64,000 bases of DNA from Ilex aquifolium (Eukaryota > Streptophyta > Magnoliopsida > Aquifoliales > Aquifoliaceae). This document shows, piece after piece, positions 9,639-50,205 of the stretch. The stretch lies in assembly GCA_951799425.1 (NCBI GenBank), contig OX637391.1, forward strand, positions 54,907,069 through 54,971,068, given 5' to 3'. The notes under the pieces are model-generated. The model was not told where the DNA came from. It did no database searches and saw nothing but the letters and a program-made list of their open reading frames with translations. The translations under genes were made by a program, and so were the position numbers. Within the stretch, counting starts at the first letter, position 1, and every line of letters begins with the position of its first letter.

Positions 9639-11432
9639 TCATGGGGTGGTCCCACTCATTAATCTTATATCCTCAATCAGACGGTTCAAATTACAGTATG
9701 ATGATCCACCTTCACTAACACTTTCTTTTGCCAATTTGGCCATCTGATTCGCCTTTTCCAAAAATTCCTCCTTCCTCACCTCCATCAGATCTTTCACCGT
9801 CTTCTCAATTATGGCTCTGTCACAGGTGTCCTTTATGTCCAATCCTAGCTTCCACACCTCCCCCACAAACCTACTGTTCACCTGCTGATCAGCAAAGTAC
9901 GGCCAACACATCATCGGAACTCCGGCAGCTATGCTCTCCAACGTAGAGTTCCATCCACTGTGTGTCAAGAACCCACCAACAGCTGGGTGCCCCAACACCT
10001 CTTCTTGAGGAGCCCAACCCACTATATAGCCTCTCTCTCTCGTACCCTCTGAGATTTCGGTCGGAATCTGACTCTCCCAATCTTTTCCGGCGACTGAATC
10101 CTGCCGAATGACCCAGAGGAATCGTTTCCCACTATTCACCAAACCGTGCCAAAACTCCATAAGCTGGTCTCTCGTCATCATTGTAAGACTTCCAAAGCTT
10201 ACGTATATCACAGATTTAGATTGTTGTGCGTCAAGCCAAGTGATGCAGCCCTTGTCTTCTTCCCACAAGCTGTTTGATGACAGTGAATATGGCGTTGCTG
10301 CCGCTACGAGTTTGGTCTTCAGATGTGCATGTTGTGGTCCGATGGTGTAGAGATTTGGACATACAATATGTATATGTGAGAGTATGGGTCGTTCTAGTTC
10401 TTCAAATGTGTTGAGAATGAGTCCACGGGCTCTTGGGTTTTCTTCGCGCTCCATCTTGAGGATTGATATAATTGGATCAGATAGGTCACCGGAACGGCAC
10501 CAACTCGGAAGATCTCGTCGCCGGAGAAAACCCTCCATGCCCGGAACACTTTTTATCAGTGTGTCCAAGTCATTCCCTTACAAGCAACAGTATTTAATAC
10601 TCGTTAATTTCAAATATCAAAATAATCAAATTTCTAGATTACAATAGCATTACTCTCAAGTATAACTCACTGTTATATTAATTGGAAACAGAAGATATAT
10701 CCTCTTTGCTATTCTTCTAAAAAAATTCTCTTAGACAAATAGAGATTAAAAGAAAACAAATGATTAATACTATTTAGATTCAAAATTTTGACTTAATTCT
10801 AAGTTTTATTGTTTGATTAGATCACAATCAATTCAAAAATTATAATAAATTAAGTACAAATAAGATTACTCAACAACAAATTAATAGAGGGCAAAGAGAA
10901 GACAAATATAGTCAAACACACCTTCAAAGAGAAGCTCATCAGCTTCAATGAGTTTGGGCAGACAGAAAAAGACCCAGAGGCTGCAAGGACTAATCGTACG
11001 GGAATATATAACAGGAATTCCAATTTCATCAGCAACATCACAAACAAAACCCAAAGCACCATCTGCTATGATACATGTCAACGGCCGACGAGTTTCAGAA
11101 CTCAGGCCGCCGGAAATTAGCTTCTCTTTGAACAGTTTCTTGGTTATGGACTTTAAAGAATCCAACACCTCCATTATTCTGGCCCCGGAACGGGGATGAT
11201 TTTCCGGCAGGCCATCGGAGATGGTTTCGAGATGTAACGAGGGATAGTTTTGAAAGCGGGAATGAAAAGTAGAGTGACGTTGAAGACGATTGTAGATGTA
11301 GTCGGTGAGAAGGATGGTGATGTGGAAGCCTGAAAGGCAGAGAAGCTCGGCTATCTTAAACATGGAGTTTACAGGGCCCTGGAAGGGTAACGGGAAGATG
11401 AGTACGTGAGGTGGGAGCGCACTTTGATCCAT
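9639..11432 (-). CDS. UGT-B1: UGT709-like protein lacking the catalytic His
   Basis: Exons 10922-11432 and 9639-10576 flank a 345-bp phase-1 intron (donor GTGTGT, acceptor TGTAAG) and encode 482 residues with no break. The N-terminus reads IFPLPFQGPVNSM: Pro20 replaces the His that acts as general base in plant UGTs. The partner Asp124 in CIIADG, the linker SVPGMEGFLRRRDLPSWC and the full PSPG box (residues 358-401, WAPQEEV to PYFADQ) are kept. It has the ETISDGLPENHPR block seen in 7-deoxyloganetic acid glucosyltransferase-like proteins. UDP-sugar binding is therefore expected, but ordinary glycosyl transfer is doubtful. A 181-bp MITE sits 94 bp upstream of the start codon. B2 is its closest copy. 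Confidence 0.9.
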
Positions 11433-11525
11433 CAGAGAGACTCACTGTTTTAGTTTGATTTTTAGCAAAAGCTTCAAACTTTGAAACATGTATTGAACTC
11501 TAAAATGGAACCCGGTTTTATTTAT

Positions 11526-11706
11526 CACTAATGCTATTGGGACATAATTGAAGGACATAATTTGGGGACTTAATGCATTATGACCATTGGATTGATAGTG
11601 TTGGGACCCAGTGATAATTTAATGTTGGGACCCAATGACAATCCATGGTCATAATATATTAAGTCCCCAAATTATGTCCTCAAATTATGTCCCAATAGCA
11701 TTGCTC
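11526..11706. mobile_element. 181-bp Mutator-type MITE in the B1 promoter
   Basis: Bounded by a perfect 9-bp target duplication TTTATTTAT (11517-11525 and 11707-11715). The arms are inverted: AATGCTATTGGGACATAATT on the left matches the right arm read in reverse, which ends GCATTGCTC. The equivalent places upstream of B2 (about 38149) and B3 (about 48603) are empty, each with a single TTATTTATTAACG. Three relatives occur at 14394, 40952 and 48691. Confidence 0.88.
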
Positions 11707-11810
11707 TTTATTTATTAACGTAACAACACGTCAAACAATAGATTCCTAATAAAAAAATCAAACTGTTAAGGTGTGTTTGTTAATTTAAATTTAACACTTA
11801 ATAAAATTTA

Positions 11811-12754
11811 GGGAAAATTTCAGTCACACCCCTCCTAATTTATTATATCTTCAAGGACACCCCCTATATTATCAAAAAATTTCACTGACATCCTTTCTAC
11901 TTTATATTTAAACATCACTAACACCCCCTACCATTAAACTACAATTTTAACAAAAATAATTCATCTAAAATACCAAAAATGTCCCTACATAAATTTCAAG
12001 TAATCTTTCTACATAAAATTTTATTAAAATTAGAGTCGATTAAAATTTATTTTTCTACATATTAAAATTTGAACAAATTAAAATTCCATTGAAGCTGATT
12101 AAATTTTATTTTTTTTAACGTATTAAAATTCGAGTTTATTAAAATTTATTTTTTATGTATTAAAATTTGAGCCGATTTAAAATCTACCCGAGTTATTAGC
12201 GCCGATTAAAATTTTCTTTTGAGTCGATTAAAATTTATATTTTTTTACTTATTAAAATTTGTGTCAATTAAAATTCGATTTATTAAAATTTGAGTCAATT
12301 AAAATTTATATTTTTATGTATTAAAATTTGGACTTATTAAAATTTAAGGCGAGTTGATTAAAATTTTATTTGAGTTGATTAAAAATAATTTTTAATTGGC
12401 TCAAATAGAATTTTAATTAGCCCAAATTTTAATACGTAAAAAATATAATTTTTAATCAGCTCAAATTTTAATATGTAAAAAAAATAAATTTTAATTAGCT
12501 TGAATCGAATTTTAATCAGTCTGAATTTTAATACGTAAAAAAAATTAGAAAATAGAGGGGGTCTCATTGAAGATATGTTTATCTAGAGGGGGTGTAGATG
12601 AAGTTTGTCCTCAAATATATCATGGGTAATTTAGTAAAATTGCATTTTAGGTAATATTTTTAATCTGACAGGAGGTGTCAGTAAAAATTCAGAAAATAGA
12701 AGGAGTGTCTTTAATGATATGATAAACTAGAGGGGGTGTGGTTGAAATTTTCTC
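11811..12754. mobile_element. 944-bp non-autonomous Mutator-like element with inverted minisatellite core
   Basis: A perfect 9-bp duplication TAAAATTTA flanks it (11802-11810 and 12755-12763). The ends are GGGAAAATTTC and GAAATTTTCTC, and the similarity of the arms extends for about 90 bp with repeated CACCCCCT-type motifs. The core is a degenerate array of ATTAAAATTTGAG-like units that reverses orientation near 12390, so most of the element could fold on itself. No transposase is present. Confidence 0.82.
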
Positions 12755-12763
12755 TAAAATTTA

Positions 12764-13911
12764 AGTGTAAGTGGTTGTAGTTATCCTATGCTTAAAAAAA
12801 AATTAACACTTAAAATAAATGTATTTGACACTTAATTTAAACTCTCCTTATTTAATTCTAAAAGTTAAAAGCGCTCAGCAAAATATTTTTAATAATATTT
12901 AAAATATGACAATTATACTCCAAAATATTTTATAATTCTATTAAAATTTTAATTAATCTTCTCTCTAAAATATCTAACATATCTATCCTCTTAGCCCATC
13001 ATTTTCTTCAGCCACTGACAGATAAATTTCTTCCTTGTCGTCTTCTTTTTTTTTACCTTCCCATGTTTTGTCCTATAAAAAAAATACATATTTAATTACA
13101 CACACATGCACTACACACAGACACATGCACTATACACACACACATAATTAGACATACACATGCACACATACACACGCGTTGCACACACACGTTGTGCACA
13201 CACACGTGCCTTTTATTGTTATTTTTTTCAATATTTTTTTATTATTTATTAGTTATTATTATTTTTTATTAAATGTTATTATTCAGTTATTGTATTATTC
13301 AATTTGTTTTTGTTTAGTTATTGTGATTGTTCACTTATTACTATTCTATTAAATTAATTTTATTATCATGTTTATTAAATCTAGACTATAATATGATAAT
13401 AGTGATTATGATTAATGTTATAAATTAAACTGATTTGATATATCGTAATTTTTTATTAGATAAAAATATATTTTATAAAATTTTCAAATTAAAGAGTGGA
13501 AGGATAAAATTAAAATTAATTTTTTTTCTAGACGTCAGTTATGTTTAGTTATCAAACAGTTTAGTTAAATTCAGTAATTAAATTTCAATGGCTATCAAAT
13601 AATCCACGAATTTAGACTTCAGTTTTCTGTTTTCAGACTTTAGCTTTCAATTTTCAGTTTTATCAAACACCACCATAGTAATGATATTAAGATCTAAAAA
13701 AATAACCTTCGTGATTAGCTAAATTACAAATTAGTAATCCTATCATAGTTTCAACATTATAATGCATATCTCATCAGGTTTTGTCCACAAGAGGTATTAG
13801 CAAAATACTTATACTGCCACTTTTGTCATTAATAAGAGCCTTTGCACACAGCATGCTTGTGAGTATCTCATTTAGAGGAAGAGTTAGTTATGGAGGATAT
13901 ATAAAAATATA
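12764..13911. repeat. Spacer upstream of B1, duplicated near 38.2-39.6 kb
   Basis: AT-rich, no gene. A CA-rich tract with many CACACA and TGCACA motifs lies at about 13097-13210 and recurs at about 38884-39022. The text on both sides is alignable with the segment beyond B2. Confidence 0.7.
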
Positions 13912-14306
13912 GGGTAAAATATGTTTTTAGTCCCCAAAGTATGCATTTAATTATATATTTGGTCTCCAATCTTTCAATTATGTCTAATCAATCTCTAAGG
14001 TTTCTAATTTGCATCTAAGTAGTTCAATTTCAAATATCCGTCAAAAAATTGTGACGGTTCTGGTCACGCATTAATCACGTGGTTCCTAATTTTATTTTTA
14101 TTTAATCCTTAAAGTTCATAATTTGTGTCTATTTAGTCCCAAGTGATTGCCTCGTGATAAGAGGCGTTAGCTATTTTTTGATGGAGGTTTGGGATTGAAT
14201 CACATTGATACAAATTAAGAATCTTTGGGACTAAAAAGACAATTGAAATATTAGAGACCAAAAAGACACTACACGCTTATTTAGAGGCTACAAATATATT
14301 TTACCC
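13912..14306. mobile_element. 395-bp Mutator-like MITE
   Basis: The ends are GGGTAAAATATGTTTTTAG and, in reverse, GGGTAAAATATATTTGTAG. The flanks are AAAAATATA and TAAAATATA, a 9-bp duplication with one mismatch. A partly deleted copy lies in the duplicated spacer at about 39610-39967, so insertion preceded the segmental duplication. No coding capacity. Confidence 0.7.
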
Positions 14307-14393
14307 TAAAATATAAAAATGTAGAAAGACTAATAACGATGACAAGTTATGAATAATTATGGGTGCTCGACAAGTAATATTGCTATTTGATAA

Positions 14394-14574
14394 GAAAAAT
14401 GTTATTTGGACCTAATTTGAGGATCTAATCTAGGAACCTAATGATGTACAATCATTGGATTGGTTATAGGTTCCATCTAACATTGAAACTCACAACTAAT
14501 CCAATTGTTACATTGAAATCACATCATTAAATCCCTAGATTAGATCCCTAAATAAGATCCCTATCGCATTGCTC
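14394..14574. mobile_element. 181-bp Mutator-type MITE, second copy
   Basis: Same family and same length as the element at 11526. The flanks ATTTGATAA (14385-14393) and ATTTCATAA (14575-14583) form a 9-bp duplication with one mismatch. The paralogous spacer has the single empty site ATTTCATAA at 40042-40050, so it inserted after the duplication. Confidence 0.85.
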
Positions 14575-15545
14575 ATTTCATAATGCAGACCCCAAAACCC
14601 TAGTCGTCCTTAACTAGTTGTATAGAATCTTATTTCTCCAAAACACCTAGTTTGGATTAAGACAAACTCAAGCAACAATTAAGACGCATCCAACCCAACG
14701 ACCAAATATTCTTAAATCACACCTTCTACCAAATTTGTTCGTCAAGTTTATTATTTTATGTATTTTTTACTTTTTATATTGTATGTTTTTTTCTTTTTAT
14801 GTTGAATGATAATACATGAATCAATAGAAAATCTACCAATACAAATCTCTTTCATAGTCTTGTTCTGAAGAAGTACCTCCTGAAATGCCAATCAAATTAG
14901 AAGGGGTGCAGAGTTATTTTAAAAGCTATGTAGGCCCCATTTGTAATTTAACTTGACTAAAAGAGGCGTGACTTCTTTTTCCATCATTTTTTTTGTAAAT
15001 ACTATTTTTGGATCTAGTGCTTCTCTTTTTTTTTTCTTTTTGTTATATGATGTTCAAGTTTGTGTCGATTATTTTATCGAGCTCGGATACTAATCATCGT
15101 AGTTCAAGCGAGTTTAGAACATGTCCCCTTATAAACAAGAATAACTGACCCTTAATAAATATAAAAAGTGTTAAACCTAAAATCTTGAATCTAGTGTTTA
15201 TTAATCATTACAAGACAAAAGCTTTACCCGTCTCTGTAGGAGATTGATTTATTGGTGGTCCCTAATATTATTCTAATAAAGATATCAATTTCATATCACA
15301 TTTTCTTATGGAAATTATGATGGTCGTCTAGAAAAATGACAACCATAACAACTGCGGTCAGAATGAGTAATAGACGTGATATAATTAATAATCTATGTTA
15401 CGACAAAAAATATTACGTCATGCATGAAGTTTTATATATTAAATTAATGTATCGTGTCTGAATTGTTAGTATTTTTTTATCAAGAAAATTTGAAGTTATA
15501 TGCCCAAAATATTTGACTGAGGGGCAGACAATGTCCTATCAACCA

Positions 15546-16654
15546 TAGTGGTGCAATTCGGGCGGGTTGGACAGTCAACTCTAGTCCAACCCTAGGTATA
15601 TAATTTTCAACTCTAACCCTAATCCTAACCCTACTTCGAGTTGATAAACTCAACCATGCACTGCCCGAGTTAAATTCGGGCTGATTTTGGGTCTCACACA
15701 CACACACACATATATATATACACACATGCATATTTGCCTGTTGTTACCTCAACTATATTAACACAGAAGTTAAGGAAAGTAGGTAGAGCTTTGCCTCCTA
15801 CATAAGCGTCTGCTTTAATATTTAGATGGTTGAATCTAACTTCAATTTCAGGCAAATCAATTCCAACTCTGAGAAATTCCACGGAAGAACACAAACTCAT
15901 TATTGACAAACCCAAAATAAAAAAGCATTTATAAACCAAAAATAGTTAAGATACAAAATTGAAAGGAAAAGATTAGAAGAAATCTAACCTGTCAATTCGA
16001 TCCCTGAAATTTAACAAGAACTGCTCATTATCTTCTTCTGCTACTTTAATCAGCCTCTCAATCAAAACCTTTCTTTGTTCAAACCCAAGATTCTCTACAT
16101 CAACCTCATTGGTCACACCAGTTGATCCATGCAACAGACCTTTCTTCAATCGTTTGAAAGTGGGAAGCTTTTCAAGGGAAGCCCATTTAAGAGTATTTGA
16201 GAGAGAGAGGCGAAGACGAAGGAAGATGATCTGAGAGTGAGAGTGAGACCGAGAGACCGAGAGAGACTGAGAGACCGAGAGATAGGTCTGATCTGAGGGT
16301 GAGACTGAGAGATCGAGAGACCGAGAGAGACTGAGAGTGAGAGATAGGTGAGGGTGAGACTGTGAGAGTGAGAGACCGAGAGAGACTGAGAGTGAGTGAG
16401 GGTTATGGGAGGCGCAGACTGAGTTGAGAATCAGAGTAACCCTAGTATAAATTATAAAATTATATTTATATAATAGTAATTCGGGTTGAACCCGTGAATC
16501 CGAGGGGTCAACCCGAGGCCCGCCCAAATTAAATTCGGGTTGAGATTTTTTGACCCAAGCCCAACCCAAGTATTAAAAACCTTTGCCAAAGCCCTAATTT
16601 TTTCGGGTTGAGCTCGGGTTGAAATCGGGTTGCCCAACCCAAGTTGCACTCCTA
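15546..16654 (-). mobile_element. 1109-bp hAT-like element carrying a captured ABCG/PDR fragment
   Basis: A perfect 8-bp duplication ATCAACCA (15538-15545 and 16655-16662) flanks it. The left end TAGTGGTGCAATTCGGGC mirrors the right end, which reads TAGGAGTGCAACTTGGG in reverse. The paralogous spacer at 41236 has the uninterrupted empty site CTATCAACCACCTAAC. It holds no transposase; the cargo is two exons of a transporter gene, plus CA/TA and GAGA low-complexity tracts. Confidence 0.87.
15748..16199 (-). pseudogene. Captured N-terminal exons of a PDR-type ABCG transporter
   Basis: On the minus strand the first exon (about 15988-16199) encodes LKWASLEKLPTFKRLKKG, then DVENLGFEQRKVLIERL and AEEDNEQFLLNFRDRIDR. 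A roughly 120-bp intron (donor GTTAGA, acceptor TTTCTCAG) leads to a second exon (about 15748-15867) with VGIDLPEIEVRFNHLNIKAD and ALPTFLNFCVNIVE, ending at a GTAACA donor. This is the conserved N-terminal region of plant pleiotropic-drug-resistance ABCG transporters, and the splice phase restores the family order exactly. Both nucleotide-binding domains and all membrane segments are missing. The junctions are preserved, so genomic DNA, not a spliced copy, was captured. Function is unlikely beyond small-RNA effects on the donor gene. Confidence 0.85.
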
Positions 16655-18879
16655 ATCAACCACCTAACACTGTAAAACACTTTGCATTTTGTCTTGCTCT
16701 AGCTCTCTACATTTTTCATTATAGAAATCCTATGTACATAAAATTTGGAGCTAATCTCACTTTGTATTGGATATTTCGGTTTTTAATTTGTATCTTTAAA
16801 TATTAAAAATTTTAATTTACACTTTTAATGTTACTACTTGATGCACACGTGCATTGATGCACACGTGCATTGATGCACACATCCTTGAGACACCAACATT
16901 CAAAAAATTCATACAAAACCCTTTTTAATAAGTTTCTTTTTCTTGGCTAGGGGTTTAGCACATGGAGAAAATCTTGCAAATTTGAGAAGATATGTTTATT
17001 ATTGTCTCTCTAAATTTGAGACTAATATCATTGCAAAATATGACTACATCTCAATCAAAACCCCCATAGAAGACCTTTTGGTTCCAATGATTGGGTAATT
17101 GAGCTTCCTTGCTTCCAATTTGTCCAAGAGAAATGACTTTATTACCATGGAAGAATATCTATATATCATAGACCCAATTCAAATAACTCGGTCCCTACAA
17201 ACAAACAAAAAAAAATAGAGAAATAAAAATAGTCGAGTAAAATGACAAAAGATTCAAGAAAATTGCAGCAAATTCCAATTTGGAACTTAAAAAAATCTGA
17301 GTTTCAACAATAAAATAAATCATGATAGTTTCAACTTTGTTGCATAGTCAACCATGCACATAGAAACATGACTATAACCAATTGACATGAAAAAAAGGAA
17401 ATAAATGAGAATGAAAAAATAATAAAATCTAGAATATCAATATGTAGCAAGGAAACTGAAGAGATAATTATGAAATATGAATGAACGAAAAGAACAAAGA
17501 AAAACAAGGATAAGAAATGAACTGAGAACAACAAAGGAAAGAAACGGAAAAAGGAGGGGGGCCTCTCTCTGTTTTTTTTTTAATTAGAAAGATGAGGTTG
17601 AACAATTTTGTCAATTGCCATTACTTGAGGGACTATGATCAACAGTTTTTTGTCACAATGACATTAGCTCGCCTACACATATATCAAGTGACAATAAGAA
17701 ATAAAAAAAGTTAAAGTGTTCCTTTCTTTTGAAATTAAAAAAGAATAAGATAAGAACACGCTAAAAGCAAAAATATAGTCATTATCACCAACACTCCCAC
17801 AGCTCTTCACAAATTATCCTTCTACAACCTTAGAATCAATATGTAAAAATGAAACATGGACAATGATAATAGATCGGTGTTAAAAAAAATCAGACTATTA
17901 AATAGGCAAACAAATTTAGATAATGACTAAAATATGGTATATAACTGAAGAAAGTAGCTAAGGCAAAATTGCATATTTACTGGCCCCTTTCTAAACTCCC
18001 ATGTAGTCAATTTATTTGATGTACAATTTGAGGAATAGCTCTTTTATAACACAATGACATGAAGCCAACCAAGCAACTCAAATCAATATTAAGATTACAA
18101 GAAGATTTTCACATCAATGCAAACAACTGAATTCAATTATTACTAATTGAAACTTCATCAAATCAACCTGAGTCAATACTCAAATATCCAAACCAAATCG
18201 AGAATTAGCCCCAGTTTAAGAAGCTTTAAATTCTCGGTGCACTCATCATTCTAATAAATCTGGTTACTAACTTCAAGAACAAACCTCTCAATGTGGTTCT
18301 TTTCTATTTATAGTACACCAATTAAAAATTTTCTAGGTGTACTTCAGGTTTAGTTTTTTTTTTTTTTTTAAATGGTTAATTCAGGTTTCATTCAAGAATA
18401 ATTTTTACAACTGCATAGATCAATATTCGTTATTTGTTCCTCCAATATTTCACAACTTTGTCCTCAAATGAAAGCTACAAAATAGCATAATAAAAAGTAC
18501 CTTGCAAACTAAACCAAATTAAGCCTTATCCCTCAAAACCCATCAAACCCTCCAAATCTGGATAAACATAAAAATTGATAAACTGAATTTATAACTCCAA
18601 CCATCAATCTACTTCTTTTCCATTCGACCAAATATATAACACAGAAAATATTTAGAAAAAACCACTCAATTCATTGACATTTTTTTTTGATTGTTTCAAC
18701 TTTGGAGCATCTGATTTTGCATATTCTGCTTATTCTATGGTAAATCTATAGTCTCTTATCCTTATCATATGCTATTTATATTTTAAATAATTTCAAAATT
18801 GTATGAATTTTATGATAATTAACTTATTATCTTTTATTTTTAGTAAATTATTATCTTCGGTTAATAATTTATAAAAAAT
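16655..18879. other. Intergenic DNA; small 16-bp tandem repeat
   Basis: The first 200 bp align with 42125-42236, the end of the duplicated spacer. At about 16838-16884 the unit GATGCACACGTGCATT occurs nearly three times. The rest is AT-rich, and I see no gene, RNA or clear element. Confidence 0.55.
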
Positions 18880-20159: not shown

Positions 20160-20196
<37 letters not shown>

Positions 20197-22100: not shown

Positions 22101-23760
22101 CTAGCTATGAGTTGCTCCTCTACCATTCATCAATCTTATATCCTCAATCAGACGGTCCAAGTTACAGTATGAGGACCCACCTTCACTCACAGCCCTTTTC
22201 GCCAACTTTGACATTTCATCTGCTGATTTCTTGAACTCATCCCACCTCACCTCCATCAGATCATTGATCATCTTCTCAACTATGACTCTGTCACAAGTGT
22301 CTTTCATGTCCACCCCAAGATTCCAAACCTCCCCCACAAACCTACTATTCACCTGCTGGTCAGCGAAGTATGGCCAGCAGATCATTGGCACACCCTCCAA
22401 TATACTTTCCAAAGTAGAGTTCCAACCAGTATGAGTCAAGAAACCACCAATGGATGGGTGGGCCAGGACTTCCTCTTGTGGGGCCCAACCCACCATGTAC
22501 CCCCTCTCCTTCGTACCCTCCTCCAGCTCAGCCGGAATATGATGTTCTCCATCTTTTCCGGCAACGGAGTCTGGCCGCATGACCCACAAGAATCGCTTCC
22601 CACTATTCACCAAACCGTGCCAGAACTCCAAGAGCTGGTCTCTTGTCACCACCGCTACGCTTCCGAAGCTCACATAGAGCACAGATTTCATGGGCTGCTC
22701 GTCAAGCCACCTAATGCAGCTCCTATCTTCCTCCCACAAACTGTTCGAAGAGGTCGATGAGGAAGTTGTTTTTCTGGCGAGGCTGGTCTTCAGTTGAGCA
22801 TGGAGTGGCCCGATGGTGTAGAGTTTTGGACAAACAGAACGGATGTGAGAGAGAATTGATCCTTCAAGGTCTTCAAACGTGTTGAGTATGAGAGCTTGGG
22901 CTCGAGGGGTTCGCCTGGTTTCAGTAAGAACCATCTTGAAGTCATCGGATTCGAAGTCGCTGACGCGGCAAAAGCTCGGTAGATCACGTCGCCGGAGAAA
23001 GCCTTCCATGCCCTTCACATTCGCTATTCCTTCATCCATATTGTCTCCTACAATTTGTTTACAGTAAAAGTATTTACATTCTCCGGGAATCAAATACTCA
23101 ACATATAAAGTGCTTGCGTAAATGCCTCAATTAATTTGTCAACACAAAAAAAATTTACGCGAGACATCGGAAGATTAGAAAGCAAATTAGCAAACTAATA
23201 GACAACCGACCACCCCCACCCCTTTTTTAACCAGCAAAAAAAAAAATAGACAACCGACCATTGAAAGGAAGCTCGCCGGCTTCAATGAGTTCGGGGATGC
23301 AAAAATAAGCCCAAAACGAGCAAGCGCTCACCGTACGGAAAAATATGACTGGAATACCAATCTTTTCACCAACTTCAATTGCTAGACTCAGAATACCGTC
23401 GGCTATAATGCACGTCACTGGCCGGCAGGCGTCGCTACTCAGACGATGTGAAACTATCAAATCTATGAGAAATGGTTTCGCTATGGCTTTCAGAGATTCA
23501 TACATCTGTATTAGCCCATCAGGGGTGTGTAAACTTCCTTCATAAAGGTCCTCTGGAAGGGTTTGGAAACTGAATCCGGGATAGTGATTGAACCGGGGTT
23601 GGACATTGGTGTGAGTTAGGAGGCGGCCATGGATAGAAGCAGATACAAGGTAAGTGACATGGATGCCAGAAAGGGAGAGAAGCTCAGCAAGCTTGAGCAT
23701 GGAGTTTACGTGGCCCTGTAGTGGGAAGGGGAAGATGATAACGTGAGGTTGATCCATCAA
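22101..23760 (-). CDS. UGT-A2: UGT709-like UDP-glucosyltransferase, intact
   Basis: Exons 23259-23760 and 22101-23047 with a 211-bp phase-1 intron (donor GTCGGT, acceptor TTGTAG) give 482 residues. Compared with A1 it lacks four residues after MMDQP and has a different C-terminal tail (NGRGATHS in place of NGKRSNS); otherwise it is nearly identical. The catalytic His is in FPFPLQGHVNSM, Asp is in CIIADG, and the complete PSPG box runs from WAPQEEVLAHPSIGG to PYFADQ. All key residues for UDP-glucose transfer are present. It is expected to be a functional paralogue of A1; the acceptor is unknown. The intron is longer than in A1 because of a small A/T-rich insertion near 23225. The acceptor of exon 2 could also be reached from the orphan exon 1 of A3 lying upstream. 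Confidence 0.92.
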
Positions 23761-25116
23761 TGAAGTGTTTCAATCGGGAGTTGATTGTTGATTTCAGGCT
23801 TCAGCTCAACCTAGCCTTGGTGTCCTACCTATAAATCTAGGACTTCTGGTGAACAAAGGAATTAGATTTGATCCAAATTTTAATGAGTAAATTACATTTT
23901 GGATTTTTAGGGTTGTGATTTAATCACTTAAATTTCTTGATATTAAAAATATTATACATAAATTTTTTAAAGTTTGTACACCTGTAACACTTAGATCTCT
24001 ATCGTAAATGTTCACTAATATATCCATTAGAATTTTATGATTTTGATTCTCATGGGTAAATTACACTCAAATTCTTTAAAATTTGTTATTTAATTGCATA
24101 GATCTCGTCATATTTGAAATATTACATTTAAATCCAAAATATCTATGTGATTAAGTTATAAACTTCAGATGATCTAATTGAAAGTCTCAAATTTTTCTCA
24201 AAATAAATCACCACTCCTTCTAAATAACTTCTTCATTTTCAATTATATTTTTTCTTTGTTAATGGTGCATGAATCATAGAATCATAGTTATCATAACCAA
24301 GCCAAATGTCGAACTATCAAAAAGATTGGGCCATTAGTTTTTTGGTTCAAGTATTATGTCAACTGATCGGACCGGTCATATAATAAAAAAATAAAAAATA
24401 TGTTCAAATGCATATAATTTTTCATAAAATTAATGAAGTTAAATTACAAAAAAGCAATATGTGTCAAAAAAAATTCCACTGAATACATGTGTCAAAGTTG
24501 ATGACCCATTTGACATAAAAAAGGCATATTTCAAAGAATCTAAAATGCAAAACCATTTGCAGAGTGGAAAAACCCACTCAAAGCTTTAACTTTGAAGTAC
24601 TTTTCGGAGAGAGAGTGATTTTAGGAAGGAGATAGAGATGAGATCTAGAAAGATGATCGAAGCAAGAAGAAAGGAGGACCGGAGGAGGCTCATAGGAAAG
24701 CAGAGAGACAACATGAGAGAGATCCAGTGGAGATGAGGAGAATCGAACGCCGGAGAGAGATTCGTCGCCTGAGCCACCGTCGCCTGAGCAAGATCGAAGT
24801 GTTCAACTGGGCTTTAAGGCAAAATTTTCCCAATTATTTTTTAAAATATTGATTCCATATATAATCGGTCGATTTAACAGTTTAAAGGCAGTTTGATTGC
24901 ATAAACGGTCGAATTCAAGAACTGGACAAACTTAGGGTTTGATTCAGGGATCGACCTATCTGGTCGGATTTTAATAACACTGCATAGAACCTAGGTTATG
25001 TGATTTATTATTTAGAAGTAAAATTAGGTCAAAATTACAGTTTTACCTCACTGCTTGAGACAGAGGTGTAATAAAATGTGTTTCGTGCAAAGCAATATTA
25101 TTAATAGACAACGCAC
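23761..25116. other. Intergenic DNA between A2 and the A3 remnant
   Basis: No exon 2 for A3 is found here. The only structured item is the 699-bp Mutator-like candidate at 24284-24982. The rest is AT-rich with a repeated GTAAATTACA phrase near 23886 and 24057. Confidence 0.6.
24284..24982. mobile_element. Candidate 699-bp Mutator-like element
   Basis: The flanks CATAGAATC (24275-24283) and CATAGAACC (24983-24991) form a 9-bp duplication with one mismatch. The ends, ATAGTTATCATAACC and CAGTGTTATTAAAATC in reverse, are similar, and GGTCGA/CGGACC motifs recur near both ends. No coding content was recognised. Confidence 0.5.
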
Positions 25117-25627
25117 CGTTGAAGGGTAGCTCTCCGGCTTCAATAAGTTCCGGGATGCAAAAATAAGACCAAAAGGCACAAGCACTGATTGTACGGAAAA
25201 ATATGACCGGAATACCAATTTCTTCACCAACTTCAATTGCTAGACTAAGAACACCGTCCGCTATAACGCAAGTCACCGGCCGTCGGGCGTTTTTAACCGG
25301 ACCACCCGAAACCATCAACTCTTTCAGAAATGGCTTCGCTATAGCTTTCAAAGATTCATACAACTTGAACACACCATCATGTGTATGTACAGTTCCTTCG
25401 TAAAGTCCGTCAGGAAGGGTTTGAAAACAGAAACCGGGATAGCGATTGAACCGGGATTGGACATTGGTGTGAGTTAGGAGGCGGCCATGGATAGAAGCAG
25501 AGACAAGGTAAGTGACATGGATGCCAGAGAGACAGAGAAGCTCAGCCAGCTTGAGCATGGAGTTTACGTGGCCTTGTGCCGGGAAGGGGAAGATGAGAAC
25601 ATGAGGTGCCTGATCTGGTTGATCCAT
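25117..25627 (-). pseudogene. UGT-A3: orphan exon 1 of a type-A UGT
   Basis: This is a complete, open exon 1 of a UGT709-like gene, beginning MDQPDQAPHVLIFPFPAQG and ending ELPFNG at a consensus-like GTGCGT donor in the same phase as A1 and A2. It encodes the whole N-terminal acceptor half, with the catalytic His in QGHVNSM and Asp in CVIADG. No exon 2, PSPG box or acceptor site follows in the 1.3 kb before A2, so on its own it would make a truncated protein of roughly 190 residues that reads into the intron. It is more diverged from A1 and A2 than they are from each other. Its upstream flank is a copy of the A1 upstream flank. Confidence 0.88.
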
Positions 25628-26139
25628 CAATGGAGTTTTTTTTTCTCCAAATTTTCTCACACTAGTTGCTGGCTATTGTATTGTTAAACAGACTTCAGCT
25701 GTACCTATTATACAGACGAGCAATGTCAAGTGCGCCAAAATTGGATCATTCACTGATTCAATGATTGCAATTAATTTAGTGCAAGTTTTAATATCCATAA
25801 AATAATTCTATACAGACAGGATGCGTTTGGTGACGTCGGTAGGTTCAACGTCTCAGTATATTAAATAGAGAAGCTGTACAATTAAGTTTTGCTTTTACAC
25901 ATATACAAAGGGAACAAAATTATATAAGGGAAGCTAGTAGGGTGGTTGGAAATTGGCTTAAAGATATCATATTTTGAAATTAAGTTCGATTCTCGTAAGA
26001 GTTGATTTTTATCTTATGCACTTGGTATTTGAATAGTTAAGCACGTATTCGTATTAATCAAGAGTTTAAAAGGTTGGTGATTGGTGGGTGATTCTTCTTC
26101 ATTATTTGTAGCTAAATTATCACTACAACAAAAATCGTT

Positions 26140-34930: not shown

Positions 34931-34946
34931 CTTTTTTTTTGTAGTG

Positions 34947-36199: not shown

Positions 36200-38032
36200 T
36201 CATGGGGTGGTCCCACTCATCAATCTTATATCCTCAATCAGACGGTTCAAATTACAGTATGATGATCCACCTTCACTGACACTTTCTTTTGCCAATTTGG
36301 CCATCTGATACGCCTTTTCCAAAAATTCCTCCTTCCTCACCTCCATCAGATCTTTCACCGTCTTCTCAACTATGGCTCTGTCACAGGTGTCCTTTATGTC
36401 CAATCCTAGCTTCCACACCTCCCCCACAAACCTACTGTTCACCTGCTGATCAGCAAAGTACGGCCAACATATCATCGGAACTCCGGCAGCTATGCTCTCC
36501 AACGTAGAGTTCCATCCACTGTGTGTCAAGAACCCACCAACAGCTGGGTGGCCCAACACCTCTTCTTGCGGAGCCCAACCCACTATATAGCCTCTCTCTC
36601 TCGTACCCTCTGAGATTTCGGTCGGAATCTGACTCTCCCAATCTTTTCCGGCGACTGAATCCTGCCGAATGACCCAGAGGAATCGTTTCCCACTATTCAC
36701 CAAACCGTGCCAAAACTCCATGAGCTGGTCTCTCGTCATCATTGTAAGACTTCCAAAGCTTACGTATATCACAGATTTGGATTGTTGTGCGTCAAGCCAA
36801 GTGATGCAACTCTTGTCTTCTTCCCACAAGCTGTTTGATGACAGTGAATATGGCGTTGCTGCCCCTGCGAGTTTGATCTTCAGGTGTGCATGTTGTGGTC
36901 CGATGGTGTAGAGATTTGGACATACAGTACGTATATGTGAGAGTATGGGTCGTTCTAGTTCTTCAAATGTGTTGAGAATGAGTCCACGGGCTCTTGGGTT
37001 TTCTTCGCCCTCCATCTTGAGGATTGATATCATTGGATCAGATAGATCACCGGAACGGCAACAACTCGGAAGATCTCGTCGTCGGAGAAAACCCTCCATG
37101 CCTGGAACACTTTTTATCAGTGTGTCCAAGTCATTCCCTTACAAGCAACAATATTTAAGACTCGTTAATTTCAAATATCAAAGTAATCAAATTTCTAGAT
37201 TACAATAGCATTACTCTTAAGTATAACTCACTGTTATATCAATTGGAAACAGAAGATGTATCATCTTTGCTCTTCTTCTAAAAAATTCTCTTAGACAAAT
37301 AGAGATTAAAAGAAAACATATGATTAATACTAATTATTTCAAAATTTTGACTTAATTTATTTAATCATACAATTTTATTGTAAGCGTTGAATTAACACCA
37401 AGTTTTAATGTTTGATGAGAATCATAATCAATTCAAAAATTATATTAAATTAAGTACAAATAAAATTACTCAACAACAAAGTAATAGAGGATAAAGAGAA
37501 TGCAAATATAGTCAAACACACCTTCAAAGAGAAGCTCATCGGCTTCAATGAGTTTGGGCAGACAGAAAAAGACCCAGAGGCTGCAAGGACTGACCGTACG
37601 GGAATATATAACAGGAATTCCAATCTCATCAGCAACATCACAAACAAAACCCAAAACACCATCTGCTATGATACATGTCAACGGCCGACGAGTTTCAGAA
37701 CTCAGGCGGTCGGAAATTAGCATCTCTTCGAACAGTTTCTTGGTTATGGACTTTAAAGAATCGAACACCTCCATTATTCTGGCACCGGAACGGGGATGAT
37801 CTTCTGGCAGGCCATCGGAGATGGTTTCGAGACGTAACGACGGATAGTTTTGAAAGCGGGAATGAAAAGTAGAGTGACGTTGAAGACGATTGTAGATGTA
37901 GTCGGTGAGAAGGATGGTGATGTGGAAGCCTGAAAGGCAGAGAAGCTCGGCTATCTTAAACATGGAGTTTACAGGGCCCTGGAAGGGTAACGGGAAGATG
38001 AGTACGTGAGGTGGGAGTGCACATTGATCCAT
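36200..38032 (-). CDS. UGT-B2: UGT709-like protein lacking the catalytic His
   Basis: Exons 37522-38032 and 36200-37137 with a 384-bp phase-1 intron (donor GTGTGT, acceptor TGTAAG) encode 482 residues. It is very close to B1. Like B1 it has IFPLPFQGPVNSM, with Pro20 at the catalytic His position, and keeps CIIADG Asp124, the MEGFLRRRDLPSCC linker and an intact PSPG box (WAPQEEVLGHPAVGG to PYFADQ). The open frame has survived since the B1/B2 duplication, which suggests it is either young or still under constraint. Its promoter lacks the MITE seen upstream of B1. A UDP-sugar-binding pseudoenzyme, an altered catalytic mechanism, or a dead gene not yet decayed are all possible. Confidence 0.9.
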
Positions 38033-41000: not shown

Positions 41001-41305
41001 TCACTATGACCTTTGGATTGACTGTGGGCTCCATCAAATATTGGAACTTGGTGTTAATCCAATGGTTCCAATGAAACCATGTCATTAGGTCAGTAAATTA
41101 TGTCAAATTTTTAGGTCCAAATAACATTTTCCTTTTTTAGATGGTTAGTCTAAGTAGTTAGTATTTTTTTATCAAGAAAATTTGAAGTTATATGCCCAAA
41201 ATATTTGACTGAGTGGCAGACAATGTCCTATCAACCACCTAACACTGTAGAATAGAACACTTTGCATTTTGTCTTGCTCTAGCTGTCTACATTTTTCATT
41301 ATAGA
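38033..41305. repeat. Spacer upstream of B2, duplicate of 11.43-15.5 kb
   Basis: This aligns with the sequence beyond B1 but lacks the 11526 and 14394 MITEs, the 944-bp element and the 1109-bp hAT-like element. It carries its own 181-bp MITE at 40952 and additional AT-rich sequence at about 38390-38780. A CA-rich tract spans about 38884-39022. No gene is seen. Confidence 0.75.
40952..41132. mobile_element. 181-bp Mutator-type MITE, third copy
   Basis: It starts GAGCAATGCTATTGGGACC and ends, in reverse, GGAAAATGTTATTTGGACC. The flanks TTTTTTAAA (40943-40951) and TTTTTTAGA (41133-41141) give a 9-bp duplication with one mismatch. The equivalent site near 15430-15470 is empty. Confidence 0.82.
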
Positions 41306-42124
41306 TGATAAGGATGGAATTTTGAGCATGGGTCGCCGTGACATCGGAGTTCAATATATCTTGAGAACCCAGAAGGTGGGCTTATTAGCCCAAAGGAAGT
41401 GCCTCCAATTAACCCACGATAAAGAGCAGGAAAGGCCCAAAGATCAAGCCCAACGGCTCCGGATGACCAGCAGCCCAGGCTCGGCCCAATCGAGTAGCAG
41501 CCAAAGGACAATCTGGGAACGAGAAATCACCCCCTTGTCCTGAAAAGGATTCCGTCGCGCCACGTGTCCAAGGTTCAAGGGGACCATCTCTGAAACCTAA
41601 GACAGTTACGCCTCCCCGGAGGCAGGAAGAGGTGGTGCACAACGATCCAGAGATCCTGGGCACAGGGGCGCCGGCTAGTACAAGCTTTTGCAGGACAAGG
41701 ACTGGAGGTCCCCACAAGATCAAGAAAAAGGCAGGAGGAGCCACCAAGAACCCTAGGACGAATGACTCGTATAAATAGAACAGTGCTATGTAGCTGGAGC
41801 TCTCTCGAGAACTTCCTATGAGAATCATCGTCTTCACCTTCCCCATTGTCTTTTCTATTCACAGATATTCAGCAAGATAAGACATATACATTTGTAAAGG
41901 CCCAGTGCCTGTAATCCACTGGTACTCACCTGAAATCAATACACGACCTCAAGGAGCTAGAGACTCTATTGTAGTGGACGTAGCCTTAGTCCATCGACTA
42001 AGGTGAACCACCTATGTCATGTACCCTTTATTCTAGATAGATCAATTTCTCTTTTAAACCAGCTAGCAAAACCTATCAGCAGATCAACTGCTGGGCTTGG
42101 GCTATTATTTCCGAGTCCCCGTCA
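41306..42124 (+). mobile_element. Solo LTR, 819 bp
   Basis: It begins TGATAAGG, ends CCCGTCA (TG...CA) and is flanked by the perfect 5-bp duplication ATAGA (41301-41305 and 42125-42129). The paralogous sequence at about 16723-16727 has a single ATAGA. A TATAAATAG box lies near 41770. No primer-binding site or internal region is present, so it was left by LTR-LTR recombination. It differs from the LTR at 49430. Confidence 0.85.
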
Positions 42125-45100
42125 ATAGAAATCCTATGTACATAAAATTTGGAGCTAATCTCACTTTGTATCAAAGATATTTTGATTATTAATTTGTATC
42201 ATCAAATATTAAAATTTTTTATTTGTACCCTCTGATGATGCACAAATTGATTTTGCACACCACCTGTCAAGTAATTAAAGCAATAACAAATAAGAAAAGA
42301 GCTAACACAAGCAATACTCAGATATAGAGTGATTCAGTCAAGGTGACGTACTCCACTATAGAAGACTAAAATATCCTGGGTGTTTTATTGCTTCAAAGAG
42401 AGTAATAGGTGAAGTTCAAGAATGGGAGATCTGCCCCCCCCCCCATGTGTAGACGGAACTTACAATTTATAGTGTCTCTTAACAGATTGAGGCGCATTTT
42501 CAATAACTAAGAAACTAATTTGGTGGAGCTAACATCATTCTCACAACGGATGAGGCAGTTATGGAGTTCTCCTCAAGACCAGGTCTTAGGATAACGTGGT
42601 TGACTTCTTCACTCCTTACTCCAAGGTGACGTGGATGAGGCTCTTGGGATGACACTACTCACTCCTTGACGATGTGGTTGTTGGAGCTTTGATGAGCTTG
42701 GCTAGACATGAATCTCTTTTGGGTTGGGTCCATCGGGTTTTGTCTAGGTGGGTCTTTTATTCAAGTTGGGACCCCTAGCCTGAGTTGGGCTTTGGGCAGG
42801 GCCCATTACCTTCAATGTTATGAATTGATAGTAATATGGACATGACTCAAACTGTCATTCAATTTTTCTTCAGAAATTGAAATACATAAGGTACAAGTGT
42901 TTCGGGTATGAGAATGAGGTATGTCCATCGTTGTAGATCTTCGTGTGCGATCAATTTGTCACCCTTTTATTTTGTGTATCAAAAGTAAGTTTTCATTAAT
43001 TAGATAAAGACTAACTCAATCATGTGCAACTCATATGAAATGTCAACAGTTTATGAATTTACACATAAGTTCATGCCTGAAGCACTTACAATTCACACGT
43101 TTCAATTTATCACGAAAAATTTACCGAGAATCTGAGTCAAATTCACATTTCTACCAATTCATAATATTAAATGTGTAAATTAAGATTTTTAATATTTAAA
43201 TGTATAAATTGAGAATTGAAACATTTTCATGATGGAAAGTGAGATTAGCCTTAAACTTTGTGCATCATATGATTGTGATTGTCAATTGTTGAAATAAAGA
43301 GCCTATTGTTATCCAATAATTGATAATTATTTGGGTTTTTTGGCGTGGGTGCATTTTTTTAGACTTATTTGAGAGAAAGTGTATGAATAATTATTTTACT
43401 CTATTAAGTTTAATTTTAATAAAATGTCTTGTGATTAGGTATAAAAATTAAATGTAATTCGAATTTTTTTACTTATCATTCTTTAAATTATGCATATTTT
43501 TTATTATTTGACTCTCTCTCTCTCTCCCCTATTTTCTCTCCATCTCTCTCATATCTATCTCCAATTGATCATTTATTTTCTTTTCAAATATGTAATGATT
43601 TAACTTAATTTTATATATATATATCTCTCTCTCTCCTATTTTCTCTCACTCAGTCTCTCTTTCCTTATTTTCTCTCTTTCTCTCTCTTTATATCAACATT
43701 ACAACAACATAATTATACTAATCAGTTACAATTGCCCTATAATACACCAAACAATTACTCATGTGTTCTAATAAACCAAACAGTTGCACTAAATAATTAT
43801 ACAAAATTATGACACCAACCTAATTTGTTATTCAGTTATTTACATAAATTAAAGAGTTGCATCATTTAGTATCACAATATAGTTAGACAAATTATATACA
43901 CAAAATTTGGTATAATGGTAAACTCTTTTGTGTAATGATAAACTCAATTTGATGTATATAATTAGTATAACCATATTATGATCCTAAATATTATAACTCT
44001 TTGATTTATATAAACAACTGAATAAAAAATTGGATTGGTGTTGTAATTGCGTGTACTTATTTAGTGTAACTTTTGATTTATTAAAACAAATGAGTAACTG
44101 CTTGGTGTATTATTTGGTAATTATAACTAATTAGTGTAACTGTGTTGTTATAACGTTGATATAATGAGAGAGTAAAAATAAGGAGAAAAAGAGTAACTGT
44201 GAGAGAAAATAGGGGGAAAGAGAAAAAAATAGGGGAGAGAGATGAAAAAATTAAATCAAATCTTTACATATTTGAAAAAAAAAATTATCAATGTGTGTAT
44301 GTGTGTGTGAGAGAGATAGATAGAGAGAAAATAGAGAAGAGAAATGGAGAGAGAGAGAGAGAGAGGGAGACAAAGAGAGAGAGTAATGAAGTAATAAATG
44401 ACTTTTTAGTCTTTTTTTTCAAAAAAATGCAATTAGGGTCAAATAAGTTTTTTTAATGTAGTTTATCTCAATTAAGTCCAAATTTTTGTACCGACTTTCA
44501 AAGTTCCCTAATTATTTAATGCATAAAATTAGTGCTCATAACATTACTCTATCTATTATCTATTTGGATTTGCAAAAAACCATATCAAAGGCTCTGGCTT
44601 TATAACCACCTCTCGATCAATTCAATGAATCACACTACACAAACAATCTATGGTACAAAGGGATTTTAAAGGTTTCATCACGGCTATTTTTTTTTTTATC
44701 TTTATTATCAATTTACCAGTGTCTCTGAGTTATTTCTCAATTTGTCTATTGTTGTATTAAATCAGATTATAAACCCATGTTTTTTAATCAAAAATGCATT
44801 TGTAAAACACATCGTCCAGCACCTTTAAACAAAAACACTTTTGCTCGAAAGCGCGTTTCACACCTATTCCATCTAAAGCAGGTTTTTATCTCTTCGTTCT
44901 ACTCATCCAGATTAGAGACATTGATTATAAGTACTACTAACAGCTGAACCAAAAGACCGAAAGTCCCCCTCACCCACAGAGGGGGAACAAACAGGAGAGT
45001 TTTTATATCACGAAAAGTCCAGTGCTCGTGCTTCTTTCGAGAAATGTGTGACCATGAGGATCCCTCCTAATGTGGAATATCCGGTTAGAGCTATAATGAT
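42125..45100. other. Intergenic DNA with large inverted repeat
   Basis: The first 110 bp end the duplicated spacer. A C run lies at about 42433. The large palindrome at 43497-44400 is listed separately. From about 44560 to 44870 the sequence resembles 49090-49400 (shared CAATTTACCAGTGTCTCTG). No gene was found. Confidence 0.55.
43497..44400. repeat. About 900-bp foldback (large inverted repeat)
   Basis: The left arm (about 43497-43900) and right arm (about 43920-44400) are imperfect inverted copies. Left TTATTCAGTTATTTACATAA pairs with right TTATATAAACAACTGAATAA, and left TTTCAAATATGTAATGATTT pairs with right AAATCTTTACATATTTGAAA. The outer arms are CT/GA microsatellite-rich. No coding content and no convincing target duplication was found. 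The transcript would form a long hairpin. Confidence 0.8.
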
Positions 45101-45815
45101 TAGGGCTATCAAAATCTGACACGACACGATTAACCGACACGAATTAAACGGGTTTGGGTGAGATCTTAACGGGTTTGTGTGATAAACGAGTTGACACGCC
45201 AAACACGTTTAATAAACGGGTCGTGTTCGGGTGAGACCTATCAAACCGTTTATCACACGTTTACCCGTTTAAATAAAATTCATATAATAATAAATTAATA
45301 ATTATTTTGAAAAAATTAGCAAGAGAAAAGAAGTAAAGAAATCAATATAAAAAAAAAAAAGTAAAGTAGTAGTTCAAAGACAAATGAGGGGATTTGGGGA
45401 GCACTTCAAAGACAAAGGCAAAACAATGCCTTTTGTTTTTGTCCCACATTGGAAAATGAGAGGAGAGGGGGAGGGTTGAGTTGCCTATAAAAAGTCAATG
45501 AACTCTTGTTTTTTTTTTAAGCCTTCAAGTCTAATTTTTTATGAGATTTGAATAAAAATTCCTCTTTTTTGAGGTAAGTACGTACAATTGGAAGTAAAAT
45601 AAAAGTTGAATATTAAAATTTGTTGATATAATTATTTTAAAATTAAATGGGTTAAACGAGTCGTGTTGTGTTACCCGTTTATTAAACGGGTCATGTTCGT
45701 GTTGAGATTTTTCACCCGTTTATTAAACGGGTCGTGTACGGGTTTACATATTTTTCACCCGTCACCCGTTTAACCCGACACGTAACTGTTTAACCCGACA
45801 CGATTGACACCCCTA
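45101..45815. mobile_element. 715-bp non-autonomous hAT element
   Basis: A perfect 8-bp duplication ATAATGAT (45093-45100 and 45816-45823) flanks ends TAGGGCTATC and GACACCCCTA. The right end in reverse reads TAGGGGTGTC, a common plant hAT terminus. Subterminal ACGGGT, AAACGGG and CGACACG motifs are repeated at both ends. No transposase. Confidence 0.88.
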
Positions 45816-45823
45816 ATAATGAT

Positions 45824-46734
45824 GCAGGGAAGTGGGTACAAATAATAATTTAATGAACGAAAGGGGATAAAAAGAAAGAAATTTTCAAACTACTTATACT
45901 ACTAAAAATTACTAATCACTCGGATTAAGACAGAACTGGTAGTGATCAATTCTGACTTTAGACGGTGAAGTTATTCAATTATAAAATATTACCAAAAAAG
46001 ACAAAAAGGCCATTTTCAAACCCTAAAAGAAGGAATTTGTTTGAAATCCACCCTGAGTTATTGCATCCCCTATTAAGGGTGCAATGAGTTCATTTCGCCA
46101 CGCCGTTGCTGATTGGATATGGGTGATTAAAAACTCATGTTAAACGAAAGTACCTATGAAAAAGCCAATCTAATTGACCAGCCCGAACCACCCCGACATT
46201 AATCCCATTGATTTAAGTAATGTGCTGCTATACGATATGCATCACATAACTACAAACCCAAAATGGCATCCGGTCACCAGTACCACCAAAGTCAAGCAAC
46301 AAATCACGTTACTCCCGTGAATCGTACCCTATTTAATAATCACATGAAAATCAAGAACGATTTTAAACAGATACGACTTATATCTAAACTACCAACTTGG
46401 GTGGTGAAAGTCATAATTCTAAACCATATTTTCATTCAGTAAGTTAAATGATCAAAGCATCTTCAAAAAGTCTCAAAGACTTAAATACCATCCATGGTCC
46501 TAGGCGTAAGTCCAAAAGTTTTGCCCATCACTGATGATTTAGCCATAGGTTGGGCACCTGAAAAATTTTAGGCCTTTAATTTTAAATAGACTGAACAATT
46601 TGAACTACAATAAGGTAACTTCATAAAAAAATCGATACAGAATTTATAATTCGATTACAGTAATTGAATGAGCGACAAAAATGGAGCCTTAGTTGATCCG
46701 CAACCCATTCTTAGAGAAATTAATCATGGGGTGT
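45824..46734. other. Intergenic DNA, no gene seen
   Basis: Between the 715-bp hAT element and the B3 3' flank. Homology to the other B copies begins only near 46710. No reading frame or element was recognised. Confidence 0.55.
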
Positions 46735-46809
46735 GGTCCCACTCATCAATCTTATATCCTCAATCAGACGGTTCAAATTATAGTATGATGTTCCACCTTC
46801 ACTAACACT

Positions 46810-48471
46810 TTATTTTGCCAATTTGGCCATCTGATTCGCCTTTTCCAGAAACTCCTCCTTCCTCACCTCCATCAGATCTTTCACCATCTTCTCAACTATG
46901 GTTCTGTCACAGGTGTCCTTCATGTCCAACCCTAGCTTCCACACCTCCCCCACAAACCTACTGTTCACCTGCTGATCAGCAATGTACGGCCAACATATCA
47001 TCGGAATTCCGGCGGCTATGCTCTCCAACGTCGAGTTCCATCCACTGTGTGTCAAGAACCCACCAACAGCTGGGTGCCCCAACACCTCTTCTTGAGGAGC
47101 CAAACCCACTATATAGCCTCTCTCTCTCGTACCCTCCGAGATTTCCGTAGGAATTTGACTCTCCCAATCTTTTTCGGCGACTGAATCCGCTCTAATCACC
47201 CAGAGGAATCGTTTCCCACTATTCACCAAACCATACCAAAACTCCATGAGCTGGTCTCTCGTCATCATTGTAAGACTTCCAAAGCTTACGTATATCACAG
47301 ATTTGGATTGTTGTGCGTCAAGCCAAGTGATGCAGCTCTTGTCTTCTTCCCACAAGCTGTTTGATGACAGTGAATATGGCGTTGCTACCGCTGCGAGTTT
47401 GGTCATCAGATGTGCATGTTGTGGTCCGATGGTGTAGAGATTTGGACAGACAATACGTATATGTGAGAGTCTGGGTCGGTCTAGTTCTTCAAATGTGTTG
47501 AGAATGAGTCCACGGGCTCTTGGGTTTTCTTCGCCCTCCATCTTGAGGATTGATATAATTGGATCAGACAAGTCACCGGAACGGCACCAACTCGGAAGAT
47601 CACGTCGCCGGAGAAAACCCTCCATGCCCGGAACACTTTTTATCAGTGTGTCCAAGTCGTTCCCTTACAAGTAGCAGTATTTAGGACTTGTTAGTTTCAA
47701 ACATCAAAGTATTCAAATTTCGACTAATTAGTACAAATTTATAGATTACAATAGCATTACTCTTAAGTATAACTCAATGAAGATATATCTTCTTTGCTCA
47801 TCTTCTGAAAAATTCTCTTAGACAAATCAAGAGTAAAAAATCTGGCTTTATTTGTTTATTTAATAACATGATTTTATTGTAAGTGTTGGATTAACACAGT
47901 TTCAATGTTCGATGAAATTCCTAGTTAATCAAAAAATATTAAGTATAATTTATAGTTAGTCAAACATACCTTCAAAGCAAAGCTCATCAGCTTCAATGAG
48001 TTTGGGCAGACAGAAAAAGACCCAGAGGCAGCAAGGACTAAGCGTACGAGAATATATAACAGGAATTCCAATCTCATCAGCAACATCACAAACAAAACCC
48101 AAAAAACCATCTGCTATGATACATGTCAACGGCCGGCGAGTTTCAGAACTCAGGCGGCCAGAAATTAGCATCTCTTTGAACAGTTTCTTGGTTATGGCCT
48201 TTAAAGAGTCGAGCACTCTGCCATCGGAACGGGGATGATCTTCCGGCAGGCCATCGGAGATGGTTTCGAGACGCAACCCGGGATAGTTTTGAAAGCGGGA
48301 ATGAAAAGTAGAGTGACGTTGAAGACCATTGTAGATGTAGTCGGTGAGAAGGATGGTGATGTGGAAGCCTGAAAGGCAGAGAAGCTCGGCTATCTTAAAC
48401 ATGGAGTTTACTGGGCCCTGGAAGGGTAACGGGAAGATGAGTAGGTGAGGTGGGAGTGCACTTTGATCCAT
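46810..48471 (-). pseudogene. UGT-B3: type-B UGT with early stop
   Basis: Exons 47970-48471 and 46810-47663 flank a phase-1 intron of 306 bp (donor GTATGT, acceptor TTGTAAG) and give 451 residues. The reading frame ends at a TAA where B1 and B2 have GAA (in the B motif LAKESVSEGGSSY). Beyond the stop, the next 30 codons remain similar to B1 and B2, so one base change removed the C-terminal helix region that packs against the N-terminal domain in GT-B fold enzymes. It also has Pro for the catalytic His (QGPVNSM, codon CCA, where B1 and B2 use CCT), a three-residue deletion in exon 1 after RSDGR, and Leu for Trp as the first PSPG residue (VGLAPQEEV). It is probably a pseudogene, though the protein could still be made. 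Confidence 0.82.
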
Positions 48472-50165: not shown

Positions 50166-50205
50166 GACTGTTCCTGTTACAAGTAAGCTGATTCCTCAGT
50201 GACTG

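Follow-up and report, generated by a model that had tools for sequence, protein, structure and literature searches.

Can a lineage of plant glycosyltransferases persist as working enzymes after proline has taken the place of the catalytic histidine? This question was raised by a 64,000-nucleotide stretch of Ilex aquifolium DNA (contig OX637391.1, here C1, positions 54,907,069 to 54,971,068; referred to below as the window), from a genome of 800 Mb in 103 contigs. The window carries a minus-strand array of two-exon genes of the plant UDP-glycosyltransferase (UGT) type, and complete models of 481-484 amino acids each were read from the DNA for A1, A2, B1 and B2. A histidine-aspartate pair forms the catalytic dyad of the UGT family. 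An earlier note, made from the DNA letters alone, had pointed out that B1, B2 and B3 read QGPVNSM where A1, A2 and A3 read QGHVNSM, and the gene models confirmed it: residue 20 is proline in B1 (CCT), B2 (CCT) and B3 (CCA) and histidine in all three A genes. In our judgement the chances are somewhat better than even that B1, B2, a fourth gene termed B4 and a related cluster on C18 encode working family-1 glycosyltransferases (GT1) of a UGT709-like clade that has lost its general base, most simply once; the UGT709 label, taken from the earlier note, is presumed.

Spliced B1 matched UGT85H2 (2pq6) over residues 7-476, with Pro20 opposite His21 and Asp124 opposite Asp125. The UDPGT domain (PF00201) was found above the Pfam cut-off in exon 2 of B1, B2, B3 and B4; B1 exon 1 on its own gave no Pfam match. 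B1 and B2 were, as had been claimed, fully open (482 amino acids each) with intact plant secondary product glycosyltransferase (PSPG) boxes. The 44-residue box is present in all ten two-exon genes that carry proline or threonine at residue 20, and all ten retain both Asp124, the dyad partner, and the terminal D-Q of the box, which is reported to contact the sugar (PMC12728629). Deviations in the box were leucine for the first tryptophan in B3 and asparagine for the histidine of LxHP in four C18 genes (C18a-d). B3, a recent and decaying copy, also has a premature TAA after 451 amino acids and a three-residue deletion. The exon-1 half of B1, modelled from an alignment of 15 sequences and used for fold only, had a mean predicted local distance difference test (pLDDT) score of 77.6, and its best matches in the PDB were UGT85B1 (template modelling score 0.70) and UGT85H2 (0.62), both by query length. 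These two proteins (7zer and 2pq6, respectively) are the nearest solved structures, being among the top sequence and fold matches to B1, and differ from the proline clade in that both have the catalytic histidine (for UGT85B1, PMC9545476). A scan of a viral sequence collection with B1 exon 2 revealed no relative. The clade departs from the plant GT1 pattern at the catalytic histidine, with proline at ten places and threonine at one, and from the UGT76C pattern of cysteine at that position; since active members without the histidine have been reported, its loss does not exclude membership of GT1.

The residue was then read across the genome. It could be read at 92 exon-1 places of UGTs, of which 80 have histidine, ten proline, one threonine and one arginine, and all of the proline and threonine places belong to a single UGT709-like family. 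With ten of 92 places reading proline, every one of them in that family, the pattern goes beyond chance. B1 exon 1 served as the query and gave 107 matches, match numbers being lower bounds. Ninety of these were fetched, of which 88 were read at first (74 histidine, 11 proline and one each of threonine, glutamine and arginine). L045, a broken fragment in which the site is destroyed, was excluded; L091, initially read as glutamine through misalignment, was counted as histidine in another frame; L115 and L117-L120 were read by eye as histidine; L121 was unreadable and L044 does not reach the residue. Judged by match ranges, the remaining 12 unfetched matches do not cover the residue or lie inside fetched stretches.

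The proline places comprise B1-B3, B4 (C1 54.976-54.978 Mb, 5 kb beyond the window), five C18 genes within 21.67-21.76 Mb (C18a-e) and one fragment on C13, and all four proline codons (CCT, CCA, CCG and CCC) are used. The threonine gene (L018/L038, C3:53065343-53067425; codon ACT) is open in both exons and is a member of the proline clade. Histidine members of the same family are A1-A3, a fragment on C18 (L057) and four C18 genes, among them H10, whose exon 1 contains a stop. An oddity confined to this locus was therefore rejected, given the proline genes on C18 and the proline fragment on C13, and the subfamily without histidine is wider than B1-B3. Two other places were recorded in the survey. 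L116 (C19:15539200-15539900), a distant UGT, has arginine at the catalytic position (QGRITPM) in an exon-1 match without a stop. L019 (C2:13237946-13239252) is a broken B-like copy with stops, 84% identical to B1 over 198 exon-2 residues, and its exon-1 matches do not reach residue 20.

Histidine is taken as the ancestral state because it is the outgroup state and is nearly universal in this genome. In a DNA tree of 16 genes from which codon 20 had been removed, the nine two-exon proline genes and the threonine gene fell on one side of a branch with support of 97/96, and a protein tree without an outgroup gave this group 84/89. One alternative topology was 20.6 log-likelihood units (lnL) worse with codon 20 included. 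That difference stems from exon 2; exon 1 alone was indifferent, at 0.1 lnL in the opposite direction. Two independent changes from histidine to proline were accordingly not favoured, in view of the DNA tree and the poorer likelihood of the alternative. Other trees were neutral or spoke against a single origin: support fell to 50/0 in a protein tree rooted with three UGT85-like sequences of this genome as outgroups, per-exon protein trees with an outgroup failed to unite the group, and an exon-1 DNA tree gave only 55/79. The simplest history, which is favoured but not proved by these comparisons, would be one old change from histidine to proline, followed by silent changes and one change from proline to threonine.

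Pairwise rates of synonymous (dS) and nonsynonymous (dN) change and their ratio (omega) were obtained from 37 of 40 exon comparisons. B1-B3 differ pairwise by a dS of only 0.05-0.14, by exon, and on this sequence evidence are recent duplicates. The earlier statement that proline occurs in every copy thus holds for the three B genes as a fact, and counts as one inherited change, not as three observations. B4 and C18e, both proline genes, are far more diverged (dS ~1.0, dN ~0.2, omega ~0.2), from which it follows that proline has long been retained, provided that their ancestor had it.

Selection was estimated under a codon model of the GY type (F3x4, fixed tree, 464 codons). Omega was 0.267 on the proline branches and 0.265 on the histidine branches, with no gain in lnL over a single omega; selection on the proline branches is not relaxed. 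For the older proline branches omega was 0.22, and fixing it at 1 cost 139 lnL. Recent branches gave higher values in each class: 0.367 for the B genes (omega = 1 cost 10.2 lnL), 0.333 for the C18 genes (18.0 lnL) and 0.547 for the histidine genes (3.4 lnL), with 0.392 on the threonine branch. B1 and B2 alone gave 0.354 (5.7 lnL) and B3 alone 0.383 (2.7 lnL). The earlier note had named dN/dS along the B branches as a check, and over both exons together omega = 1 was rejected for the recent B branches and for B1/B2. A real and maintained subfamily without the catalytic histidine is thus supported, and more strongly than the note could show, by the larger clade, its four proline codons and omega well below 1. 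In exon 1 alone the older proline branches also remained constrained (omega 0.235; omega = 1 cost 48.6 lnL); the branch of the change itself, with omega at the bound, is too short for use. The alternative topology left the branch-class values nearly unchanged.

That such proteins might transfer sugar without a catalytic base is suggested by analogy with UGTs that lack the histidine and are reported to be active. Human UGT1A4 has proline at the catalytic histidine position. Literature searches found no text stating Pro40 in UGT1A4. In UGT2B10, as in UGT1A4, the histidine is reported not to be conserved and the aspartate to be conserved, and both enzymes are N-glucuronidating (PMC8781437). Unlike the proline clade, these two are animal enzymes of independent origin that use UDP-glucuronic acid as the donor. 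In Arabidopsis, UGT76C1-3 and 5 carry cysteine in place of the histidine; UGT76C2 and UGT76C3 are described as favouring N-glycosylation, with weak O-glycosylation, and their authors suggested that substrate proximity may be enough (PMC12246196). As in the proline clade, these are plant family-1 proteins in which a small subfamily has replaced the histidine and kept the dyad aspartate; they differ in having cysteine, in belonging to a separate UGT group and in the known role of UGT76C2 in cytokinin N-glycosylation. Reduced activity is reported to persist on partly ionised acceptors after mutation of the histidine to alanine in QsFucT, SvFucT, GmIF7GT and UGT74F2 (PMC12728629), which illustrates transfer without histidine, but in laboratory-made proteins of which the wild types carry it. 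A soybean UGT devoid of the histidine is cited in PMC4188811. A passage in PMC3965439 with the words 'replaced by proline' was rejected as a precedent, as it concerns a different residue. Among the matches listed in PMC titles and abstract openings, with subscription literature mostly outside, there was no natural plant UGT clade with proline at this site.

In a base-free reaction the UDP-sugar would sit in the PSPG pocket as in other UGTs, and the acceptor, seated in the N-terminal pocket, would attack C1 with no proton removed from it by the enzyme. Such an acceptor would be ionised beforehand (a carboxylate, acidic phenol or enol) or, as an amine or N-heterocycle, would be nucleophilic enough by itself. 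Catalysis would then come from the positioning of both substrates, with Asp124 or water perhaps taking the proton. A fuller account, in which one old change from histidine to proline founded a base-free line that spread over several chromosomes as a plant counterpart of UGT1A4, with N- or ester-linked products yet to be assigned, falls a little short of an even chance.

Several points weigh against working, base-free transferases. Purifying selection would be equally expected for a non-catalytic protein. In exon 1 alone, omega on the recent B branches rose to 0.58 and omega = 1 was not rejected (1.1 lnL; twice the difference in lnL ~2.2), so there is no demonstrated recent constraint on the acceptor half; the recent C18 branches (0.625) and recent histidine copies (0.593) were similar. 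The splice acceptor is AAG in all of B1-B3 but TAG or CAG in B4 and the C18 genes, a difference that may weaken splicing of the three B genes. Mutation of the cysteine to alanine in UGT76C2 and UGT76C3 is reported to reduce N-glycosylation (PMC12246196), and UGTs with less acidic acceptors are reported to require the histidine (PMC12728629). Finally, a choice between N-acceptors and ionised O-acceptors for the proline clade could be made by analogy only.

The same evidence bears on the alternatives. Simple pseudogenes in the course of being lost would account for the stop and altered PSPG box of B3, the broken relatives on C2 and C13 and the lack of significant constraint on recent B exon 1. 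Eight of the nine two-exon proline genes are open, however, the older proline branches are strongly constrained, the overall omega equals that of the histidine genes, and broken copies also occur among the histidine genes of the family (H10, and A3, which is exon 1 only); we regard this explanation as improbable. A pseudoenzyme was one of two readings offered in the earlier note; here the proline proteins would bind a UDP-sugar or metabolite without transfer, acting as a sensor or scaffold or as a partner to other UGTs. A catalytic residue lost and never regained would fit this, as would an N-terminal half modelled as a UGT fold and a largely intact donor box. Yet the genes have repeatedly expanded in tandem, to four on C1 and five on C18, and tandem expansion is typical of enzymes of specialised metabolism; the sugar-contacting D-Q is retained throughout, and other plant UGTs without the histidine are active according to the papers cited above. 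A pseudoenzyme is thus unlikely, although less so than simple decay. The more specific idea of a partner for the A-type enzymes found no direct evidence, and the fetched histidine members of the C18 cluster, with its five proline genes, are not of the A type. Of the options raised in that note, a maintained subfamily without histidine stood, another mechanism fitted better, and a pseudoenzyme or partner fitted less well.

An ordinary O-glycosyltransferase in which another residue of the acceptor pocket has become the base was weighed from a site comparison, restricted to sites where the proline group has at most three residues. In exon 1, the proline and histidine groups share no residue at sites 20, 36, 43, 106, 131, 152 and 154, and site 149 has shifted (proline in eight of nine proline genes and in the threonine gene, alanine in all seven histidine genes), so the acceptor pocket may have shifted as well. 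Exon 2 has ten such differing sites, where the sole new acidic residue is Glu216, gained by all nine proline genes. These changes would favour a replacement base, but no new charged residue was gained at the differing exon-1 sites, acidic or basic, and the threonine gene has lysine at 216. No clear candidate for a substitute base was visible from the sequence, and we consider a replacement base unlikely too, by a shade more than the pseudoenzyme. Residues 148-150 form an SPC motif, but its resemblance to a QPC motif in other UGTs was dropped, the alignment being off by one residue. Working transferases that have lost the general base remain the reading that we prefer.

Within the window (see table), B1 and A1 are 63% identical (exon 1 ~50%, exon 2 71%). 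Stretches of ~5.2-15.5 kb, carrying A1 and B1, are repeated at 19-23 kb and 35-41 kb, and dS is similar for A1/A2 and B1/B2 (0.04-0.05); judged from these repeats, the A and B genes were probably copied together as a pair. Tandem block duplication suffices for this, and a functional link between A and B is not needed. A3 is a truncated duplicate: 25102-26082, comprising A3 exon 1 and upstream DNA, is an 87% match to its A1 counterpart, and no A3 exon 2 was found within the window.

Features of the UGT array, in window positions, with their strand and residue assignments.
Feature	Position	Strand	Remarks
B1 exon 1	10922..11432	-	N-terminal acceptor half; Pro20 11375-11373, Asp124 11063-11061; aligned to 2pq6
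B1 exon 2	9639..10576	-	donor half, with PSPG; 345-bp intron; acceptor TAAG/GG; PF00201 E 1.6e-26
B2 exon 1	37522..38032	-	Pro20 37975-37973
B2 exon 2	36200..37137	-	intact; PF00201 E 4.7e-27
B3 exon 1	47970..48471	-	Pro20 48414-48412, codon CCA
B3 exon 2	46810..47663	-	terminates at premature TAA; PSPG Trp to Leu
A1 exon 1	7934..8444	-	His20; adjoining canonical gene
A1 exon 2	6823..7766	-	
A2 exon 1	23259..23757	-	His at aligned position
A2 exon 2	22101..23047	-	
A3 exon 1 only	25117..25627	-	His20

Other features flank the array. At 1-1238 the plus strand carries exon 2 of another, more distantly related UGT gene, the exon-1 match of which starts before the window (C1:54906759). Direct repeats at 49427-50143 and 62278-62994, 99.86% identical, flank a gag-pol open reading frame (ORF; 50203-55677) as well as ORFs on the opposite strand that match Pfam Transposase_28, so that 49427-62994 is probably a young long terminal repeat (LTR) retrotransposon inserted beside B3. 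A tandem repeat immediately follows the pol ORF (55754-56324); its unit in one frame is MSSSAHKQTISFKAYKCK.

The histidine-aspartate dyad is regarded as the catalytic hallmark of plant UGTs, and a clade of about ten genes without the histidine is natural material in which the role of that residue can be tested. Members of the clade have diverged by up to ~1 synonymous change per site while keeping a residue other than histidine. These genes could also show whether loss of the histidine steers UGTs toward N- or ester-glycosylation, and homology-based annotation of UGTs in the clade may assign the wrong chemistry.

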